Assembly: GCA_029246285.1 (NCBI GenBank)
Contig: JAQWNW010000022.1
Span: 1 to 64,000 of the forward strand
Direction of reading: 5' to 3'
From: Paracoccaceae bacterium
GTDB taxonomy: Bacteria; Pseudomonadota; Alphaproteobacteria; Rhodobacterales; Rhodobacteraceae
DNA length: 64,000 nucleotides
Positions within the stretch are counted from its first letter, which is position 1; the number at the start of each line of letters is the position of its first letter. Under the pieces are notes generated by a model. That model was not told where the DNA came from and did not search any database. It saw only the letters and a program-made list of their open reading frames with translations. Of this stretch, positions 1,118 to 14,527 are shown one piece after another. The translations under genes were made by a program, and so were the position numbers.

Positions 1118-2943
1118 TACGAAGTCCTATGAATAGATCGTTTGCTATGAAATATATTTTTTTTGGTCTGATCTTGTCAGTTTCCTTAATAGTATCTTCT
1201 TTTGCTCTTGTTAGCTTTTATGAAGCAAAAACGTTGAGACTACTTAAAAAAGAAACCTCAGATAGTGAACTAAGTTGGTTAAACATAACAATTGATGGAA
1301 CTAGTGTTCTTGTTGACGGTATCGCTCCAGATGAAGCTAGCAGATTTAAAGCAATTACTATAATTTCATCAGTAATAAACTCTGCATTAATAACTGACAG
1401 AATCGAGATAAAAAAAGACATAATTTTACCAAAATTAAATTATACTTTAGAATTCTTACGGGATGATGATGATATTACTTTAGTTGGATTTGTTCCAAAA
1501 GCCGTAAAAATTGAAGAATTATTATATGATTTAAGAGCTATTTCTGACAGCACCTCGATAAATAATCTGTCTGAGACTATAGAATATTCAACCGCGCCTG
1601 GTTGGAAAAAAACATTAAATTTTGCAGTTGATAGTCTACGAATGTTACCTAATTCTAAGATTACATTACAAGAAAATAAAATTCTAATTACCGCACTCAG
1701 TGATAGTTTTGAGCAAGGAGAAGTATTAAGGAAAAAATTAAACTCATCAAATCCTGGTTTCTTTGAGTTAGCGTTGGATATTGAATCGCCAAGACCTTTG
1801 ATTCAACCATTCCTGTTTCGATTAAACCGGGATGGAGATAAGGTAGAGTTGATTAATTGTTCTGCTAGTGACGAGTATTCAAGAGCACTTATCTTGGGAG
1901 CTGTTCGTCAATTTGGTATAAAAGAAAAAAATAATTGTGAAATTGGTATTGGTGCTCCCTCCAGTGATTGGACTGAAGTTGTACTTGTTGTTCTGAATTA
2001 CATAAAAGAATTTAAGCAATTCTCGTTAACCTTCAAGAATAGAGAAATCTTTATTGAAATCTTTGATGGTACTGGAGATAAGCAATTTCTAAAGTTTGAA
2101 AAAAAATTACGGGAAAGTGTCCCAAATGAATTTTTAATTGAAACGTCATTTCAGTCTGGAACGGAGGCAACAGAGATGGAGTTACAGAATTTTATTGTTA
2201 CTAAAAATTCTGAAGGCCTCGTTCACTTAAAAGGTTATTTACCCAACAAGAGTGCTAAAATAGCAATTATAAGCTATGCAAGATCATTATTCAGATCTGA
2301 AAATGTCCGAGATGCAATAACTTTGACTGAAAATCCGCTAGTGGATTTGTCTATTCAAGCGTTAGCTGGATTAGAAGTTATGGGACTTTTGAAATATGGA
2401 AGTCTAAAAATTGATCCGAAATCACTTGCGATCAAAGGCCAATCAGCAGATCCAGATATAAAAAATATAGCGCAACAACTCTTTGCAAAAAAAATAGAAA
2501 AGGATATCTTTTATAAATTAGAATTAGAATATAATCCGAATTTAATACCCAAACCAGAAGGTGTAGATCCTGTAAAATGTGTCAGTGATATCAATAATGT
2601 AATTAAAACATTGGGTGTTGAATTTGCACCAGGTGAAATCATTCTGCAGCCATCGTCTGATAAAACAATTGAAAAAATGGCTGAGATTATGAGGAAATGT
2701 TATGTTGTTCCTATGGAAATTGGTGGTCATACTGATAGCCAAGGACGAAAGAGTTTAAATCTTTCAATCAGCCAAGCCAGAGCTGAAGCAGTTATGGACG
2801 CTCTCTTAAGTTATGATATTTTGACTGGAAATCTATCGGCAAAAGGTTTTGGAGAAAGCACTCCCATTGCGGACAATAATACTGTTGAGGGAAGAAATAG
2901 AAACCGTAGAATTGAATTTACTTTAATAAATAATGAGAATTAA
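1114..2943 (+). CDS. OmpA-family protein with BON-like repeats
   Basis: A 609-residue envelope protein. It has an N-terminal hydrophobic anchor or uncleaved signal (about residues 10-35), a long middle region with repeated short units resembling BON domains, and a C-terminal OmpA-like peptidoglycan-binding domain (about 495-605). That domain shows the GGHTDSQG and NRRIEF signatures. The TTG start at 1114 overlaps the ubiA stop by four bases and follows a GGAAG ribosome-binding site six bases away; ATGs at 1129 and 1147 are alternatives. It probably tethers the envelope to peptidoglycan; the function of the middle region is unknown. Confidence 0.8.
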   Translation: MIRSPMNRSFAMKYIFFGLILSVSLIVSSFALVSFYEAKTLRLLKKETSDSELSWLNITIDGTSVLVDGIAPDEASRFKAITIISSVINSALITDRIEIKKDIILPKLNYTLEFLRDDDDITLVGFVPKAVKIEELLYDLRAISDSTSINNLSETIEYSTAPGWKKTLNFAVDSLRMLPNSKITLQENKILITALSDSFEQGEVLRKKLNSSNPGFFELALDIESPRPLIQPFLFRLNRDGDKVELINCSASDEYSRALILGAVRQFGIKEKNNCEIGIGAPSSDWTEVVLVVLNYIKEFKQFSLTFKNREIFIEIFDGTGDKQFLKFEKKLRESVPNEFLIETSFQSGTEATEMELQNFIVTKNSEGLVHLKGYLPNKSAKIAIISYARSLFRSENVRDAITLTENPLVDLSIQALAGLEVMGLLKYGSLKIDPKSLAIKGQSADPDIKNIAQQLFAKKIEKDIFYKLELEYNPNLIPKPEGVDPVKCVSDINNVIKTLGVEFAPGEIILQPSSDKTIEKMAEIMRKCYVVPMEIGGHTDSQGRKSLNLSISQARAEAVMDALLSYDILTGNLSAKGFGESTPIADNNTVEGRNRNRRIEFTLINNEN

Positions 2944-2968
2944 TATTTAATGAAAAGAAAGAAAGAAT

Positions 2969-3289
2969 ATGCCAAAAATTGAACTTACGATACTAGCAGC
3001 ATTGGCATTGCTTATGTTTTTTGTAATTGGATGGGTCTCTTCTCGAATATTTCAAAATATCAATCAGATTAAGAACTTAGATGAGAATGAAATAAACGAA
3101 CTTAACGGTGATTTGTTGGATGCTGAAGAGGAAAGAGACCAAACAATTGCATATGTAAAGAGCCGAGAAAAAGAATTAACTAATCAACTTGGGCAAGTTA
3201 AGGCAGAATTAAATGCTGCCATGGATGGATTGGGAGCAGCTCGACGTGAAGCGTCTGAATTAAGAAAAAAGCTGACGCATGAGCACTAA
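2969..3289 (+). CDS. Small membrane-anchored coiled-coil protein
   Basis: A 106-residue protein with one N-terminal transmembrane segment (about residues 6-27). A highly charged helical region (about 40-104), with heptad-like spacing of leucines and alanines, is probably a coiled coil facing the cytoplasm or periplasm. It starts 25 bases after the OmpA-family gene with an AAAGAAAG ribosome-binding region, so the two are probably cotranscribed. I do not recognise a named family; small proteins of this shape are common in Rhodobacterales next to the OmpA-like gene. It could organise the partner protein at the membrane, but that is inference only. Confidence 0.7.
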   Translation: MPKIELTILAALALLMFFVIGWVSSRIFQNINQIKNLDENEINELNGDLLDAEEERDQTIAYVKSREKELTNQLGQVKAELNAAMDGLGAARREASELRKKLTHEH

Positions 3290-3293
3290 AGAA

Positions 3294-3737
3294 TTACCAA
3301 CGACTTAAACTATTTTCATCGTCTTCAGTACTTAAAACCCATTCACTTCCATCATTTGTAAACTCTTTTTTCCAAAAAGGTGCTCTACTTTTCAAATAGT
3401 CCATCAGAAATTCTGCGGCATTAAAGGCTTCGTGCCTATGTTTTGCAGCAGTCATAACCATCATGATTGGCTCATTTATTTCAAGATCACCAAATCTATG
3501 GATAATCAAGCTATCTTGAAGGTTCCAGCGTTTTTTTGAGGAAAGCTGTACTTCTGCAAGAGAATGCCTTGTCATTTCAGGATAATGCTCAATATGTAGT
3601 TTTTTTAGATTTAATTCTTTGTTGTTTCTGACGATACCTGTAAAATTGACAACTGCGCCCACATTTTTCAGATCACATTGAAACTTATTGATTATTTGCC
3701 CAGGATCAAATACTTCTCGCTGTAATATCACTTTCAT
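3294..3737 (-). CDS. moaE: Molybdopterin synthase large subunit MoaE
   Basis: MoaE is the catalytic subunit of molybdopterin synthase and converts precursor Z (cPMP) to molybdopterin using sulfur carried by the MoaD C-terminus. At 147 residues it has normal length. Family hallmarks visible are GAVVNFTGIVR near residue 30, the HRFGDLEINEP stretch, a KHRHEAFNA block and the KSRAPFWKKE active-site segment near residue 116. It is the last gene of the minus-strand run uvrC-pgsA-moaD-moaE and begins one base after moaD ends. It converges with the coiled-coil gene four bases away. Confidence 0.93.
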   Translation of the reverse strand: MKVILQREVFDPGQIINKFQCDLKNVGAVVNFTGIVRNNKELNLKKLHIEHYPEMTRHSLAEVQLSSKKRWNLQDSLIIHRFGDLEINEPIMMVMTAAKHRHEAFNAAEFLMDYLKSRAPFWKKEFTNDGSEWVLSTEDDENSLSRW

Positions 3738-3738
3738 T

Positions 3739-3987
3739 TTATCCCCCAGTCATCGGCGGAAAAAAAGCAACTTCTGAAACATTTTTTAAAGGATACTCAA
3801 TATCAACTAATTTTTGATCTGCCGCAATTCGTATTATGTCTAAATCAGCAAAAGCTAATTTGTATTTTTCATCCTTTGACCGTAATTCATCAATTAATTC
3901 CTTTATATTATTTGCTTTTGTCTTCAGTAGTTCTTCAGAGATTCCCAGTTTTTCTCTAACCCATGAAAAGTATAGTATTTTAATCAT
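3739..3987 (-). CDS. moaD: Molybdopterin synthase sulfur carrier MoaD
   Basis: An 82-residue ubiquitin-fold sulfur carrier ending in the diagnostic Gly-Gly (PPMTGG), whose terminal carboxylate becomes a thiocarboxylate and donates sulfur to MoaE. I chose the ATG at 3987, giving the family-typical MIKILYFSWVREKLG start. A GTG at 4002 would add five residues. The chosen start overlaps the end of pgsA by eight bases, suggesting translational coupling. Adjacent moaE completes the molybdopterin synthase pair. Confidence 0.9.
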   Translation of the reverse strand: MIKILYFSWVREKLGISEELLKTKANNIKELIDELRSKDEKYKLAFADLDIIRIAADQKLVDIEYPLKNVSEVAFFPPMTGG

Positions 3988-7803: not shown

Positions 7804-8607
7804 TTATAATCCAAACCTTGACCAATTTATGTGGTTCTCAATTTCACCTAAAGTTTCGTTGGCAATTTGGATCCCAAATCGGGATAAAAAACCTCTCTTT
7901 TTTTCCTGTAACGAAAATTGTGTTTTTTCACCAAATTTGCTTTTCATTATTGGTACTAGGTGACCGATATCATCAATTAAACCTAAAGCTTTAGCACTTT
8001 TCCCGATCCAAAATTCTCCTGTGAAGATATCCTCACTTTGTAATTTTTTGCCACGACTCTTTTTTACTTGCTGTACAAAAGCTTCATGAATTTCTTTTTG
8101 GAGATTCAGTAATTTATCAATATCTTCAGGGTTCTCGGGTCGAAATGGATCCAAGAAACTCTTATCTTGCCCCGCTGTGTGAATTCTTCGCTCAATCCCA
8201 TATGATTTTATAAGGTCCTGGAATCCAAAGCCTGAGTAGATAACGCCAATGGATCCAACTATTGAGCTGAAATCAGCATAGATGTGATCTGCCGCAGTTG
8301 CTAGCCAGTACCCTCCTGAAGCTGCTACATCTTCAATAAAAGCATAAACTGGAATTTTTCTTTCATCTGCCAGCCGTCTAATTCTAGCCGCGATAAGGCT
8401 AGATTGCACGGGGCTTCCACCGGGAGAGTTAATTGCTATTGCTACGGCAGAAATATTTTTTTGAGCAAATGCTTTTTCAATTATTTTTTTTGTTGACTGG
8501 TCACTAATAGCTGATGAGCCAAACCTACCATCCGCAGCAATAGTGCCACTAAATCGAATTACGCTTACAATAGGTGGTTTTTTCTTAAAAGGTATCCAAA
8601 TTCTCAT
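7804..8607 (-). CDS. S49-family signal-peptide peptidase (SppA-like)
   Basis: A 267-residue serine protease of the SppA/SohB family, expected to cut remnant signal peptides or membrane proteins using a Ser-Lys dyad. It shows the core SPGGSP loop (about residues 62-67) and the nucleophile segment VAASGGYWLA near residue 95, with the Ser in ASGG. The GSIGVIYSGFGFQ motif follows. It lacks an obvious N-terminal membrane anchor beyond a weakly hydrophobic start, as in short single-domain forms. It is first in the minus-strand run sppA-like, 52-residue protein, SDR, and divergent from tauA. Confidence 0.88.
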   Translation of the reverse strand: MRIWIPFKKKPPIVSVIRFSGTIAADGRFGSSAISDQSTKKIIEKAFAQKNISAVAIAINSPGGSPVQSSLIAARIRRLADERKIPVYAFIEDVAASGGYWLATAADHIYADFSSIVGSIGVIYSGFGFQDLIKSYGIERRIHTAGQDKSFLDPFRPENPEDIDKLLNLQKEIHEAFVQQVKKSRGKKLQSEDIFTGEFWIGKSAKALGLIDDIGHLVPIMKSKFGEKTQFSLQEKKRGFLSRFGIQIANETLGEIENHINWSRFGL

Positions 8608-8649
8608 AACTTCCCTTTAATCATGCGTAGTTGAGTATACAACCACTTG

Positions 8650-8708
8650 TTTTATGAATTTAATAATTAAAATTATATTTTTTTACAATTCATTCAATTT
8701 TATGAATT
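8650..8708. repeat. Direct repeat pair and inverted repeat upstream of tauA-like gene
   Basis: The 11-mer TTTTATGAATT occurs at 8650-8660 and again at 8698-8708. The second copy also forms an inverted repeat with AATTCAT at 8687-8693. A further inverted repeat (ATTCTA and TAGAAT around eight A) lies at 8764-8783. All sit in the 227-base spacer between the divergent sppA-like and tauA-like genes. They could be regulator-binding sites for the transporter, but in such AT-rich DNA chance repeats are common. Confidence 0.3.
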
Positions 8709-8834
8709 ACACAACAAAATAAGTTTAATCTCGCAAATTATTTTTTTTAATGATATTGGTTAAATTCTAAAAAAAAATAGAATGAAGACAATTTAATTAC
8801 ACTTTAATTCAATTTCTAAACTAAAGGGGAAAAT

Positions 8835-9806
8835 ATGAGAAATTTATTAGTAAAGAGCACAGCAATTGCTGGAAGCATAATAGCTCTGTCGGCTGCTTCT
8901 GTAAGCAATGCGGCTGATAGTGTTAATGTGGCGTTTTTTTTGGAGTGGGCCTCTCCAAACCAAATATCAAAAGTAGACAAGGTTTACGATGAAGCTATGG
9001 GCGTAGATGTTAACTGGACTGATTTTTCAACTGGTGTTCAAATGACAGAAGCAATGTTGGCAGGAGATATTGATATCTCTTATTCGCAAGGTCTTTCACC
9101 ATTTGTTACCGCTATTCAGCAAGGGCATCCATTGAAAATGGTCGCTATAGCTATGGAATATGAAGCAAATGATTGTTTTATAAGGAATGGACTTGGGATA
9201 GATTCTTCAAATGCATCGGAGTTAGAGGGAAAAACTGTTGCTGTTCCACTGAATACAATGGCAGATTTTGCATTTAGAAGTTATATGTCTAGCCTAAACG
9301 TTGATACTTCTACAATGACCATTGTGGATCAAGCTCCTGCAGATGGAGCTAAGTCACTTGCTGATGGTAATGTGGATATGGCATGTATTTTTGGTGGAAA
9401 TTCATCAAAAGCTGCGGGAGAAGTGGGAACACCCATAATGACCTCTCAGCAGAAAATTGATGCAGGTATCGGTTCATTTGATGTGATTTCAGTAACTGAA
9501 AAATTCGCAACAGAAAATCCAGATCTTTTAAGAACATTCTTGGATGTGACTGATGAAGCAAATTTGGCATGGGAAGCTACAGATGCACAATTAGCTAAAG
9601 TAGCGGCAGATGCAGGTATGAGTGTTGAAGACACTCGTAGACAAATGGCTGGCATGATTTTTATGACTGAAAAACAACAGATGGATAAATATTTCGGACC
9701 TGATGGAGTGGCAGCAAGTGCTGCCGCAGCATTAGGAGTTGTTTTCTCGGACTCATCTGATGGGGCGGCGATTGCAAAAACAATTGATAGTTCGTTTTTT
9801 GACTAA
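8835..9806 (+). CDS. tauA: TauA-like periplasmic substrate-binding protein
   Basis: A 323-residue solute-binding protein with a clear Sec signal peptide (cleavage probably after ANAA-type sequence, VSNA-ADS, near residue 26). The mature part has the NMT1/TauA type II fold: an FFLEW start, a GVQMTEAMLAGDIDISYSQG ligand segment, LEGKTVAVP and a DMACIFGG hinge region. It resembles the taurine-type binding proteins of roseobacters. Exact substrate is not certain, since no tauD, tpa or xsc is in the window. A strong AAGGGG ribosome-binding site precedes the ATG. Acidic composition fits a marine periplasm. Confidence 0.85.
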   Translation: MRNLLVKSTAIAGSIIALSAASVSNAADSVNVAFFLEWASPNQISKVDKVYDEAMGVDVNWTDFSTGVQMTEAMLAGDIDISYSQGLSPFVTAIQQGHPLKMVAIAMEYEANDCFIRNGLGIDSSNASELEGKTVAVPLNTMADFAFRSYMSSLNVDTSTMTIVDQAPADGAKSLADGNVDMACIFGGNSSKAAGEVGTPIMTSQQKIDAGIGSFDVISVTEKFATENPDLLRTFLDVTDEANLAWEATDAQLAKVAADAGMSVEDTRRQMAGMIFMTEKQQMDKYFGPDGVAASAAAALGVVFSDSSDGAAIAKTIDSSFFD

Positions 9807-9827
9807 AAAATAGTTTTTAAATACTTT

Positions 9828-9855
9828 AAGTAAGGCTCAAGTGTGAGCCTTACTT
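9828..9855 (+). terminator. Strong intercistronic hairpin between tauA- and tauB-like genes
   Basis: A perfect 12-base-pair stem (arms AAGTAAGGCTCA and TGAGCCTTACTT) around a four-base loop, followed by TCCTTT. It lies 21 bases after the binding-protein stop and 24 bases before the ATPase start. Hairpins here usually protect the upstream message or terminate part of the transcription, giving excess binding protein over membrane components. The downstream T-run is interrupted, so partial termination or 3' end protection is likelier than full termination. Confidence 0.75.
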
Positions 9856-9879
9856 TCCTTTAATAATTCGAAAAATAGT

Positions 9880-10677
9880 ATGTCTGATCTTATTTGTAAA
9901 AACTTGTGTATGACTTTTTCAAATGCGCAAACTGGAGTGAAGGTCGAGGCATTGAAAGACATCAATTTCACCCTGAAAAAGGGCGAATTACTGTCCGTGT
10001 TAGGTCCGTCAGGTTGTGGCAAAACTACTTTATTAAATATGATTGCTGGATTCTTAAATCCAACATCAGGCTCCATGACATTAAATTCAACGAAAATTGA
10101 TGGCCCAAGTGTTGAAAGAGGTATGGTTTTTCAACAAGGTGCTTTATTCGAATGGCTTACCGTTTCTAAGAATGTTGATTTTGGGTTGAGAATGAAAAAA
10201 ACTTCTCAGGGTGAGAGCGATTCTTTAGTAGAAAAGTGGCTTGAAATAGTTGGTTTGCAGGGGTTTGGGAATACTCCCACTTATCAGTTGTCTGGAGGTA
10301 TGCAGCAGCGAGTTGCATTGGCACGTTGTTTGGTAAATGATCCTGATGTCATCTTAATGGATGAACCTTTGGGAGCGCTAGATGCATTAACTAGAGAAAA
10401 GATGCAGTCGTTAATTTTGGAACTATGGAAAGAAACTGGAAAAACGATATTAATTATCACTCACTCAGTTGAGGAAGCATTGTTGTTAGGAGAAAGATTG
10501 TTTGTAATGGCTCCAAGGCCTGGAAGAATACATAAGGAATATAAATTACCATTCGCCGAACAGGGCCTACAAACGCCCCTTCGCGATATTAAACAAAGTC
10601 CTCAATTTTCTGAAGTACGAGAAGAGATCTTATCGATGATCTGGGATATGGAAGAGGAGATTATGGGAGGTGCTTGA
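9880..10677 (+). CDS. tauB: TauB-like ABC transporter ATPase
   Basis: A 265-residue ATPase that would energise the importer on the cytoplasmic face. Walker A is GPSGCGKTT (about residues 42-50), followed by a Q-loop (FQQGALFEWLTV), the signature LSGGMQQR (about 137-144), Walker B VILMDEP (about 157-163) with a D-loop LGALDALT, and an H-loop TH. This is the nitrate/sulfonate/taurine (SsuB/TauB) subfamily pattern. It overlaps the permease start by eight bases, implying translational coupling. Confidence 0.92.
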   Translation: MSDLICKNLCMTFSNAQTGVKVEALKDINFTLKKGELLSVLGPSGCGKTTLLNMIAGFLNPTSGSMTLNSTKIDGPSVERGMVFQQGALFEWLTVSKNVDFGLRMKKTSQGESDSLVEKWLEIVGLQGFGNTPTYQLSGGMQQRVALARCLVNDPDVILMDEPLGALDALTREKMQSLILELWKETGKTILIITHSVEEALLLGERLFVMAPRPGRIHKEYKLPFAEQGLQTPLRDIKQSPQFSEVREEILSMIWDMEEEIMGGA

Positions 10678-12598
10678 TTGGTTGTCCCAAGAAAGAGCTT
10701 TTATTGCATCTGTTATAATTGTTATTTTATTAATAACATTATTATGGTCGATACTTGTTGGACTCAGACAGGCAACTTATCGAGCTAAAGATCAGGTTTT
10801 TGGTGATCCTGAAAGAACGCTAGGCGGTTGGTATTGGACGCTTTCGGGCGTGTCAGCAATTTTATTACTTTGGTTCTATTTTTCTTGGGGGGTTGGAAGA
10901 GCTTTCTTTCCTGAAGCTGGGAATGAAATGTGTCAGGTGGCAAAAGTTGAAACTGCTATCGCTCCTATTAAAGCTGCTTTACCTATTGATTCCCGTTATT
11001 TTAAGTCGACTGAATTGATAGTTCGAAATACTGAGCAATTAGATGTTCTGGAATCTAATTTTCCTGAAGGTGTTTTTAGCGAAACAGAAAAAGAGGAACT
11101 ACTGAATATTATAGTTAGTTCGAGGAAGATTATTGGGATTTTTTCAGATCAAGACAATCAAAGCTTAGAATCTAAACTGGCAATACGCGATATAAGTCAA
11201 GATTTAGATGAGTTAACTGATAAACTTAGCAAGGATTATACTAAATTCAATCCTTCTAGCGAAGGCTTATTACAGCCCAATTGGGGCACTACTCGCATCG
11301 AATTGCCATTACTTCCAATCACTCCGAAAGGTGTGCTTTTTGACGATATTAGTAAACATGCAGAAGTATTGTCTCAGAAATTCTTGAAATTACGGAATAA
11401 TTCAGCTGCAGCAAATAGTATTATTGAGGCGACTAAGCAGCAAATTAAAAGACTAAAGTTGTCTAATGAGGCAGCAGATCGTTCAGATGAGGTCCTGAAG
11501 GAGAGAAAACACTATATTAAAGCAGTTGAGCGCATTTTTAGAAGATTGGATGATGGAACAATCTTTCCTCCTCAGGCGTTAGATGAATTAAATGACTCAA
11601 TAAAGGATTTCTTAAGAGCGATAGAAGGTGCCAAAGGAAATTTACGGCTTGTGCAAGCGTTTTTTATTCCGGGTGCGGGGGTTGTTAAATCAAAAACTCA
11701 ATGTACTGAGCAGGGCTCTGGGCGTTGGTTGCCAAAACCGACAGACGTGGTGGCTAAATTTCTTCTTCTCGCTAATCCAAATCTAGAGAACGGAGGGGGA
11801 TATAAAGGAACTACCCTCTTTTGGTGGGATTGGATAGAAATTGCGGATCTTGTTTCATTTTTAATCCCAGATTTCTTAATTGATTTACTTCCTGGTGATT
11901 ACGGAGTTCATTCCGAACAAGGGCTATTTGTACCTAATTACAAAGATAAATTACAAGCATTCGCCCAAGGGGATGTTTATCTTGGTGTCATACCTATGCT
12001 CGATGGTCATATATGGGATTCTTTGTTCAGAGTTTTAGTGGCTCTTGCTTTAGGGATATTTTTGGGTGTGCCTTTGGGAATCTACATGGGAATATCTAGG
12101 TTTTTTAAATCCTTTTTTGATCCTATAATAGAATTGTACAGACCAGTACCTCCCTTAGCTTGGGCACCTTTGATTCTAACAATTTTCGGTATTCAGGATG
12201 ATGGTAAGATTTTTTTGCTTTTTATGGTTGCTTTTGCCATAATGGTGATTTCTGCCCGAACGGGAGCTTCAGGTACGCAATTATCAAAAATTCGTGCGTC
12301 CCACTCTTTAGGAGCGTCTAATCGTCAGATCTTGCGCTATGTTATCTTGCCCAATGCTTTACCAGAAATTTTAACAGGAATTAGAATTGCAATTGGCGTG
12401 TGTTGGGGAACGTTAGTGGCTGCTGAAATGCTCGCCGGAACTACTGGAATTGGCTTTATAGAAAATGTTGCAAGAACAGTTTCAGATTATGAATTAATTT
12501 GGGTAACAATTTTAATTATGGGTTTACTGGGTCTGGCGTTTGATCTTTTAATGAGATTAATCATAAGTCGGACGATCCCTTGGCGAGGAAAGGGTTAA
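10670..12598 (+). CDS. tauC: TauC-like ABC transporter permease with long N-terminal domain
   Basis: A 642-residue protein, far longer than usual TauC/SsuC permeases (about 250-280). Residues about 450-640 form the normal BPD_transp_1 core with its EAA loop (LGASNRQILRYVILPNALP, near 545-565). Ahead of this are two transmembrane helices (about 10-32 and 55-78). A predicted soluble, mostly helical region of about 310 residues follows, with coiled-coil-like heptads near 225-300, and then a hydrophobic stretch at about 391-410. The start is GTG with an overlapping GGGAGG. The extra domain is probably periplasmic and may contact the binding protein. Confidence 0.88.
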   Translation: MLDWLSQERAFIASVIIVILLITLLWSILVGLRQATYRAKDQVFGDPERTLGGWYWTLSGVSAILLLWFYFSWGVGRAFFPEAGNEMCQVAKVETAIAPIKAALPIDSRYFKSTELIVRNTEQLDVLESNFPEGVFSETEKEELLNIIVSSRKIIGIFSDQDNQSLESKLAIRDISQDLDELTDKLSKDYTKFNPSSEGLLQPNWGTTRIELPLLPITPKGVLFDDISKHAEVLSQKFLKLRNNSAAANSIIEATKQQIKRLKLSNEAADRSDEVLKERKHYIKAVERIFRRLDDGTIFPPQALDELNDSIKDFLRAIEGAKGNLRLVQAFFIPGAGVVKSKTQCTEQGSGRWLPKPTDVVAKFLLLANPNLENGGGYKGTTLFWWDWIEIADLVSFLIPDFLIDLLPGDYGVHSEQGLFVPNYKDKLQAFAQGDVYLGVIPMLDGHIWDSLFRVLVALALGIFLGVPLGIYMGISRFFKSFFDPIIELYRPVPPLAWAPLILTIFGIQDDGKIFLLFMVAFAIMVISARTGASGTQLSKIRASHSLGASNRQILRYVILPNALPEILTGIRIAIGVCWGTLVAAEMLAGTTGIGFIENVARTVSDYELIWVTILIMGLLGLAFDLLMRLIISRTIPWRGKG

Positions 12599-13315: not shown

Positions 13316-14527
13316 ATGGTTCACTGTAAAATGGATTGCTGTCATCTAAATTTAGAAGATTTATCATTTTCAACCAGGGGTTTTGAAATAAAAGAGGCTC
13401 GGGAAAAAGCTTTTTTTGCCACCACTCCATACGGGCTCGCTATTTTACGGTATAAGGAGGTGGGTCAACTCTTGCGTGATCGTAGATTAAGACAAGGAAG
13501 CCATGCATGGCCAGATAAAAATAATCTTAGGGGTTCATTTGGAAAATTTTGGAAGCGAAGTATCATAGGGCAAGAGGGAGAGTACCATCGAAAATTAAGG
13601 GACGTTTTGGTCCCGGCCTTGTCTCAAGAATATATAAATTCACTTATACCAGAATTTGAAGAAATAGCTATGAATCTATGTGCTAAACTAAGAACAAAAA
13701 AGTCATGTGAATTTATGACTGAATTTGCAAAGCCCTTTGCCGGGCAGGCCATGAGTCTTTTGCTTGGCTTAGAGGGCAGACAATGGGAGATGATCTCCCA
13801 GGATGCTTCTGATCTAGGCTTAGCTATGGGCGTAGATTGCAAAGCGAATGAGGTTGTCTTCGATAAAGCATATGAACGCCTAGTGAAGTTATCGAATGAT
13901 TTAATAGAAAAAGTCCAATTAGGCCGAGATAAGACAAGCTTTGTCGCGAAGCTTCTTGAGCAGGCAAATAACTTTGAAGGTTTTACTAATTTAGAACTGT
14001 CTGATCTTATTGTAATTTCAATATTTGGTGGTGTTGATACTACTCGGTCTCAACTTGGATTGGGATTGCTTACTTTTATCAAATATCCAAAAGAATGGAT
14101 TAAATTAGAAAAAGACGGCTCTCTGGCTGAAAATGCTTTTAACGAATTAATAAGGGAGCGACCAACTACAACTTGGGTCACTCGTGAGGCAATTATGGAC
14201 TTTGAGTTTTCGGGGGTACAAATTAAAAAGGGCACTACGGTGCATTTATTAGTACATTCTTCAGCTCGTGATCCACTCATTGATGATCAACAAGAATTTA
14301 ATATTAGTAAGCGACGTAAGAAACATTTTGGGTTTGGTGGTGGAGCTCATCATTGCGTTGGGCATTTTATGGCTAAAACGGATTCAATTATTGCTTTGAA
14401 GGCGTTGGTAAAAACAATAAAAGATGTCTCATTGAATGGAAAAGTAGCTTTGTTGCCCGATACTGGTAATACGAGTCCATTAAGACTGCCAATTAAGTAT
14501 CAAACTAATGATCCTGTAAAAAATTAA
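13316..14527 (+). CDS. Cytochrome P450
   Basis: A 403-residue soluble bacterial P450. The heme loop FGFGGGAHHCVG (proximal Cys near residue 347) matches FxxGxxxCxG. The K-helix ExxR is ELIR near 277, and the I-helix oxygen-activation segment is GGVDTTRSQ (about 237-245), with Asp-Thr-Thr in place of the common [E/D]-T. Substrate is unknown and no ferredoxin partner is adjacent, so electrons must come from a general ferredoxin system. Its start lies 121 bases from the divergent isomerase-like gene, which may be functionally linked, but that is speculation. Confidence 0.88.
   Translation: MVHCKMDCCHLNLEDLSFSTRGFEIKEAREKAFFATTPYGLAILRYKEVGQLLRDRRLRQGSHAWPDKNNLRGSFGKFWKRSIIGQEGEYHRKLRDVLVPALSQEYINSLIPEFEEIAMNLCAKLRTKKSCEFMTEFAKPFAGQAMSLLLGLEGRQWEMISQDASDLGLAMGVDCKANEVVFDKAYERLVKLSNDLIEKVQLGRDKTSFVAKLLEQANNFEGFTNLELSDLIVISIFGGVDTTRSQLGLGLLTFIKYPKEWIKLEKDGSLAENAFNELIRERPTTTWVTREAIMDFEFSGVQIKKGTTVHLLVHSSARDPLIDDQQEFNISKRRKKHFGFGGGAHHCVGHFMAKTDSIIALKALVKTIKDVSLNGKVALLPDTGNTSPLRLPIKYQTNDPVKN

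Follow-up and report, generated by a model that had tools for sequence, protein, structure and literature searches.

Members of the TauC family normally have about 250-280 residues, as the initial annotation of this locus stated and as Escherichia coli TauC (b0367, 275 aa) exemplifies. We were interested in a TauC-like permease of 642 residues encoded in the window, the term used here for the whole stretch of 64,000 nucleotides that was analysed (Paracoccaceae bacterium, contig JAQWNW010000022.1), and in particular, in what its additional residues are, how widely they occur and what they might do in transport. The frame, coordinates and length first assigned to the gene proved exact. It is the third in the order tauA, tauB, tauC and overlaps tauB by 8 bases:

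8835..9806, + strand: tauA-like substrate-binding protein, 323 aa (Pfam NMT1, 50.1 bits, cutoff 20.5; TIGR01729, 94.6 bits, below the cutoff of 304.25)
9880..10677, + strand: tauB-like ATPase, 265 aa (ABC_tran match; NF008421 TauB, 277 bits, below the cutoff of 357)
10670..12598, + strand: long TauC-like permease, 642 aa (open reading frame with GTG start at 10670 and stop at 12596-12598; Pfam and NCBIfam matches)

Positions 10670-12598 are one intact gene, and third-position GC stays at 0.23-0.35 across the frame without a break. The full-length protein has a single match in the window's own genome, where 5 further places match residues 408-612 only, at 24-26%. As had been proposed, the transporter core is confined to roughly the last 190 residues: BPD_transp_1 (PF00528) covers residues 466-635 with 85.3 bits against a cutoff of 26.4, identifying a type I ABC importer permease, and the NCBIfam TauC model NF007545 covers residues 443-641. 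We call the protein TauC-like because the latter match, restricted to the core, scores 186.7 bits, under the curated cutoff of 342. The Pfam scan returned no above-cutoff match N-terminal to the importer core.

Structure prediction and alignments with E. coli TauC and eight roseobacter TauC proteins divide the permease as follows:

10694..10783, + strand: extra N-terminal membrane helix, residues 9-38 (hydropathy peak 3.01; helix 9-38 in the model)
10784..10828, + strand: VFGDPER-motif loop, residues 39-53, predicted cytoplasmic (motif conservation; K/R-rich)
10829..10906, + strand: second helix, residues 54-79, taken to correspond to TM1 of an ordinary TauC (model and alignment; under the 1.6 hydropathy threshold)
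10907..11716, + strand: helical domain, probably periplasmic, residues 80-349 (domain-alone model, pLDDT 93.4, pTM 0.86)
10931..10933, + strand: codon of invariant C88, putative disulfide partner of C345 (74-row alignment; pairing inferred)
11702..11704, + strand: codon of invariant C345 (74-row alignment)
11717..11776, + strand: RWLPKPTDV segment, residues 350-369, counterpart of LPPPQQV in E. coli TauC (alignment)
11777..12007, + strand: second insert, residues 370-446, with a hydrophobic stretch at 389-407 (alignment; hydropathy 1.69)
12008..12595, + strand: permease core, residues 447-642 (Pfam BPD_transp_1; NrtB and CmpB matches)

Relative to these shorter proteins, the long form thus contains two inserts, one of about 270 residues that separates the second helix from the LPKP segment and one (residues 370-446) that separates LPKP from the core. 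The initial annotation had described two extra helices. The helix at 54-79 is indeed present, but it would replace the usual first helix, so that only the helix at 9-38 appears to be additional. The second insert was not separated there; it is conserved in the long forms, is without counterpart in E. coli TauC and the eight roseobacter proteins, has partly low pLDDT in the full-length model (pLDDT 74.9, pTM 0.61, moderately confident overall), and its hydrophobic stretch possibly lies on the membrane.

The proposal that the domain is periplasmic is supported by charge bias. Across 74 sequences, the loop that joins TM1 to TM2 (residues 31-53) has on average 5.2 K/R and 3.5 D/E, and the N-terminus (residues 1-10) 0.8 K/R and 1.3 D/E. 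Because the loop is the richer of the two in K/R, the positive-inside rule predicts that it is inside and the domain outside. Two invariant cysteines, C88 and C345, lend further support, as they are compatible with a periplasmic disulfide; they probably pair and close the base of the domain.

We modelled the domain separately since a fold search with the full-length model picked up the core. Modelled alone with 74 sequences, residues 80-349 form eight helices, each 18-23 residues long, along with two short helices and a terminal hairpin; residues 83-332 are predicted to be nearly all helical except for the linker 187-218. The initial description of about 310 mostly helical, charged residues with coiled-coil-like heptads therefore stands as to helicity and charge (37 K/R and 40 D/E among the 261 residues 85-345), but the model is a bundle of long helices rather than one long coiled coil.

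The positions C88, Q89, W205, G206, E211, G221, R292, P300, C345, E347 and Q348 are invariant in the 74-row alignment, in part through selection, given that 70 of the rows were retrieved by two peptide patterns, one with C88 and one with C345. Conservation of at least 90% is found near both domain ends (P81, N85, E86, C88, Q89; P334, C345, E347, Q348), in the H4-H5 linker, where the five nearly invariant residues W205, G206, E211, P213 and P216 form the pattern WG....E.P..P, and in three loops at one helix end (P105, R109, T114; R242, N243; R292, D294, F299, P300); H3-H4, the fourth loop there, shows little conservation. Mean conservation is 0.65 in the far-end loops, against 0.42 in the near loops and 0.48 in the helices, and R109, R242, N243, R292 and P300 are near-invariant. 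From the helix order in the model we deduce that the three conserved loops point away from the membrane.

A database search and structure prediction had been recommended for residues 80-390; for the domain as delimited here they yielded this eight-helix fold and, in Pfam, PDB sequence and Foldseek searches, no convincing relative. Foldseek against PDB chains found nothing at E <= 0.001 (best 0.09), and PDB sequence searches with the domain recovered only designed, coiled-coil and other helical proteins (best E 0.003). A Pfam scan of 12 domain members matched 14 families, each in one member, the best being a yeast protein family (E 0.0002). A profile comparison for internal duplication was weak (probability 25%, 48 columns), and no duplication is claimed.

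The long form occurs widely. A scan of named genomes gave at least 597 candidates, of which at least 585 were confirmed as relatives, and all those whose full sequence was examined are TauC. We kept 80 loci, which include Rhodobacteraceae, SAR116, Rhodospirillaceae, Pelagibacteraceae and gammaproteobacteria, among them Leucothrix and Cocleimonas; each of the 77 frames that no contig end truncates is 614-656 aa long. Conservation of the extra domain across these relatives excludes chance. In the genome draws, the strong match is single per genome, save for one genome with two fragments. The long form is present in 41 of 99 genomes of a Pelagibacter-like family (three partial), one member being 83% identical to a Candidatus Pelagibacter ubique record, and in 34 of 61 genomes of a SAR116-like family (three partial), one member being 88% identical to a Candidatus Puniceispirillum record. 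The class draw contained it in 9 of 385 genomes. Among the matches listed for the draws of the phylum (398 genomes) and the order (149 genomes), only the window carried it, and the 21 rows listed in each case all belong to the window's family.

Whether the long form is simply the normal TauC of this lineage has a divided answer: all three genomes of the window's own genus have it, against 4 of 61 among relatives and 4 of 100 in the family by whole-protein search. In 49 other genomes of the family the best match, at 43-51% identity, spans residues 418-642 only, and none of the four long-form genomes has a second match of this kind. The long form is accordingly a real and widespread variant of a known importer, found in many ocean bacteria and minor in the window's family. 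It does not appear to be already well described: among the matches listed, titles and abstract openings of the literature on taurine or TauC contained no long TauC or its domain. Plasmid-borne spread was rejected, as none of 72,556 plasmid records matched at E 1e-5. Separately, a search for the domain in 289 genomes of the class gave six strong matches and four weak ones (E 0.004-0.07); one of the latter, by eye an ABC-F-type ATPase with a coiled coil, was taken as a chance match rather than as the domain outside TauC.

The core of E. coli TauC is 44% identical to that of the long form, and the E. coli protein shares the operon order and the LP.P segment, but has neither the additional helix nor the helical domain nor the second insert. 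The closest solved cores are those of NrtB and CmpB, cyanobacterial nitrate and bicarbonate permeases (8wm8, 9u9z; E 9.4e-25 and 5.6e-24, Z up to 18.7), whose chains of 279-280 residues have no room for the inserts. Roseobacter TauC proteins (19 sequences of 420-446 aa, from 26 loci fetched) are intermediate in length; their core is 48-49% identical in the three compared, and they possess an N-terminal helix before an FGD-type motif, but carry a different module of about 120 residues at the site of the domain. The roseobacter proteins at L015:826-2091 and L024:763-2097 have this N-terminal helix and pre-core module, and of the two proteins scanned, one has a partial match to the last third of the Big_9 (bacterial Ig) model that lies just above the cutoff, whereas the match of the other falls below.

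In a tree of 90 cores rooted on E. coli TauC, 70 long forms make up one clade (support 0.75) and 19 roseobacter forms another (support 0.99). A motif of the FG[DN] type behind an N-terminal helix is shared by both (VFG[DN]P in 73 of 74 long forms, FG[DN][EP] in 19 of 19 roseobacter forms examined), which hints at a common ancestor with different modules inserted in one slot. Profile comparison of the long and roseobacter N-termini is only suggestive (probability 23%, P 0.0009), and that of the helical domain with the roseobacter domain gave nothing.

The pairing with TauA-like genes that the initial annotation suggested examining was largely borne out. The adjacency of tauA and tauB that is expected of a TauABC system is seen in the window and in relatives. 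Directly upstream of tauC, tauB was found in all 75 loci that reach 800 bases upstream (of 80), the 8-base overlap being the commonest spacing; of the 65 loci reaching 2.4 kb, 58 have a tauA in the same orientation no more than 1.5 kb upstream, and in the other 7 it is absent from that interval.

Sulfonate uptake is the likely function, with taurine itself a putative substrate, on the grounds of operon make-up and of aminotransferase and xsc-type genes in the flanks or on the same contig. An xsc-like gene is located in the fetched flanks of 7 of 80 loci, two of them near-duplicates, and beside two further relatives, one confirmed by search and one by eye. On the window's own contig, about 106 kb from the importer and outside the window, a row of genes (L138 4257-11419) is likely a sulfonate breakdown cluster: it comprises an aminotransferase, an xsc homologue with 80% identity, what by eye is a pta-like gene, and a large molybdopterin oxidoreductase. 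According to an alignment of about 320 positions, 71 of them identical, the window's TauA keeps three of the six taurine-contacting positions of E. coli TauA (G61, G79, D205), while E106 is changed to D, Q30 to F and T132 to M; all three subunits score under the curated taurine cutoffs. In the Pelagibacter ubique record (L122), an aminotransferase and an alanine dehydrogenase precede the cassette. The flanking regions of that record are 1431-3898 and 7812-11685. They contain the alanine dehydrogenase and the class III aminotransferase to one side of the cassette and, to the other, genes for a glucose/sorbosone-type dehydrogenase, an Ldh_2 dehydrogenase and a bile-acid-type symporter as well as a PTA-like gene; neither flank showed an xsc-like gene.

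What, then, might the domain do? MalF P2 is a different domain and is not known to be related to that of the long TauC. It nevertheless offers a precedent: a large periplasmic region, likewise in the permease of a type I importer, that makes contact with the binding protein (PMC3150292). We favour, at a probability of roughly 0.5, a role comparable to that of MalF P2, in which the domain serves as a docking or gating platform for TauA. The permease would serve as membrane subunit in an ABC importer of the taurine type, probably for sulfonates, in which TauA binds the substrate, TauB supplies power and TauC forms the pore, presumably as a homodimer like its known relatives. Each TauC would add one membrane helix, together with an eight-helix domain that follows the first canonical helix, precedes the core and lies on the periplasmic face. 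The two domains would flank the pore mouth, their bases probably closed by a C88-C345 disulfide, and could hold TauA in the right orientation above the gate, in the way that the P2 loop does with MalE; with TauA kept there, more substrate could be delivered at the low sulfonate concentrations found in sea water.

The platform reading is favoured because position, operon and precedent fit it: the core is that of a type I permease, the tauB/tauA pairing is conserved, the predicted topology follows the positive-inside rule, the loops placed at the far end are mostly conserved, and roseobacter TauC bears a different module at the same place. The initial annotation had suggested that the domain helps docking or senses ligand; both roles are proposals, and co-variation with TauA gave no special link. 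Over 59 loci, the domain-TauA distance correlation is 0.36 once core and TauB are removed, that of core-TauA 0.76 (domain and TauB removed) and that of domain-TauB 0.63 (core and TauA removed), a pattern that suggests inheritance as a unit and no special docking signal between domain and TauA.

This lack of special co-variation, together with the variability of the helices (mean conservation 0.44 over residues 111-200 and 0.45 over 226-285), is also what one would expect of a purely structural domain that gives the dimer stability, keeps the pore at a distance from the cell wall or tightens the gate, with no specific contact to TauA. Such a role is possible but unlikely, and the conserved end loops and the WG....E.P..P linker point instead to a specific site.

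An improbable alternative is that the domain senses sulfonate or loaded TauA and sets transporter activity, like the all-helical periplasmic domains found in sensor kinases and chemoreceptors of the TorS, PilJ and McpS types. The top VIA-align neighbours include TorS (3i9y, Z 11.3, rmsd 9.8, 156 aligned), the TorS-TorT complex (3o1i, Z 9.1, rmsd 8.4, 162 aligned) and PilJ (7zjr, Z 9.1, rmsd 2.8, 103 aligned), but helical bundles commonly give Z values below about 13, and unrelated helical proteins come close behind at Z 8-9. TorS binds the binding protein TorT (PMC6321045) and the PilJ domain of McpN binds nitrate (PMC6381276); one of 12 members matches the sensor domain DAHL weakly (E 0.086), and the near-invariant arginines could hold an anion. 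Against sensing, neither sequence nor Foldseek comparison gave a significant match to such domains, the Pfam matches scatter over single members as described above, and the protein is without a cytoplasmic signalling module. We regard the resemblance to TorS and PilJ as a lead, not a relation. Quite improbable, too, is a combined form, in which a separate domain family, so far known from these permeases alone, would let abundant ocean bacteria hold the binding protein on a periplasmic platform and read its loaded state, with a different module in the roseobacter slot, so that one protein would both sense and import sulfonates. That a separate upstream gene was fused to the permease by misassembly or a missed frameshift, a caution raised only by the initial annotation, is rejected as virtually impossible by the 77 uncut relatives of the same length, their close tauB junction and the unbroken third-position GC.

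In the sea, taurine-type sulfonates supply carbon, nitrogen and sulfur, and feeding at very low nutrient levels is usually explained by the affinity of the binding protein. A permease-side module would represent a second, testable cause of such feeding in Pelagibacter- and SAR116-type carriers. Curated models miss such systems, as the scores of all three subunits illustrate.

On the downstream side of the operon in the window, a cytochrome P450-like gene (13316-14527) separates the importer from nuo-like genes (NADH dehydrogenase, by eye).
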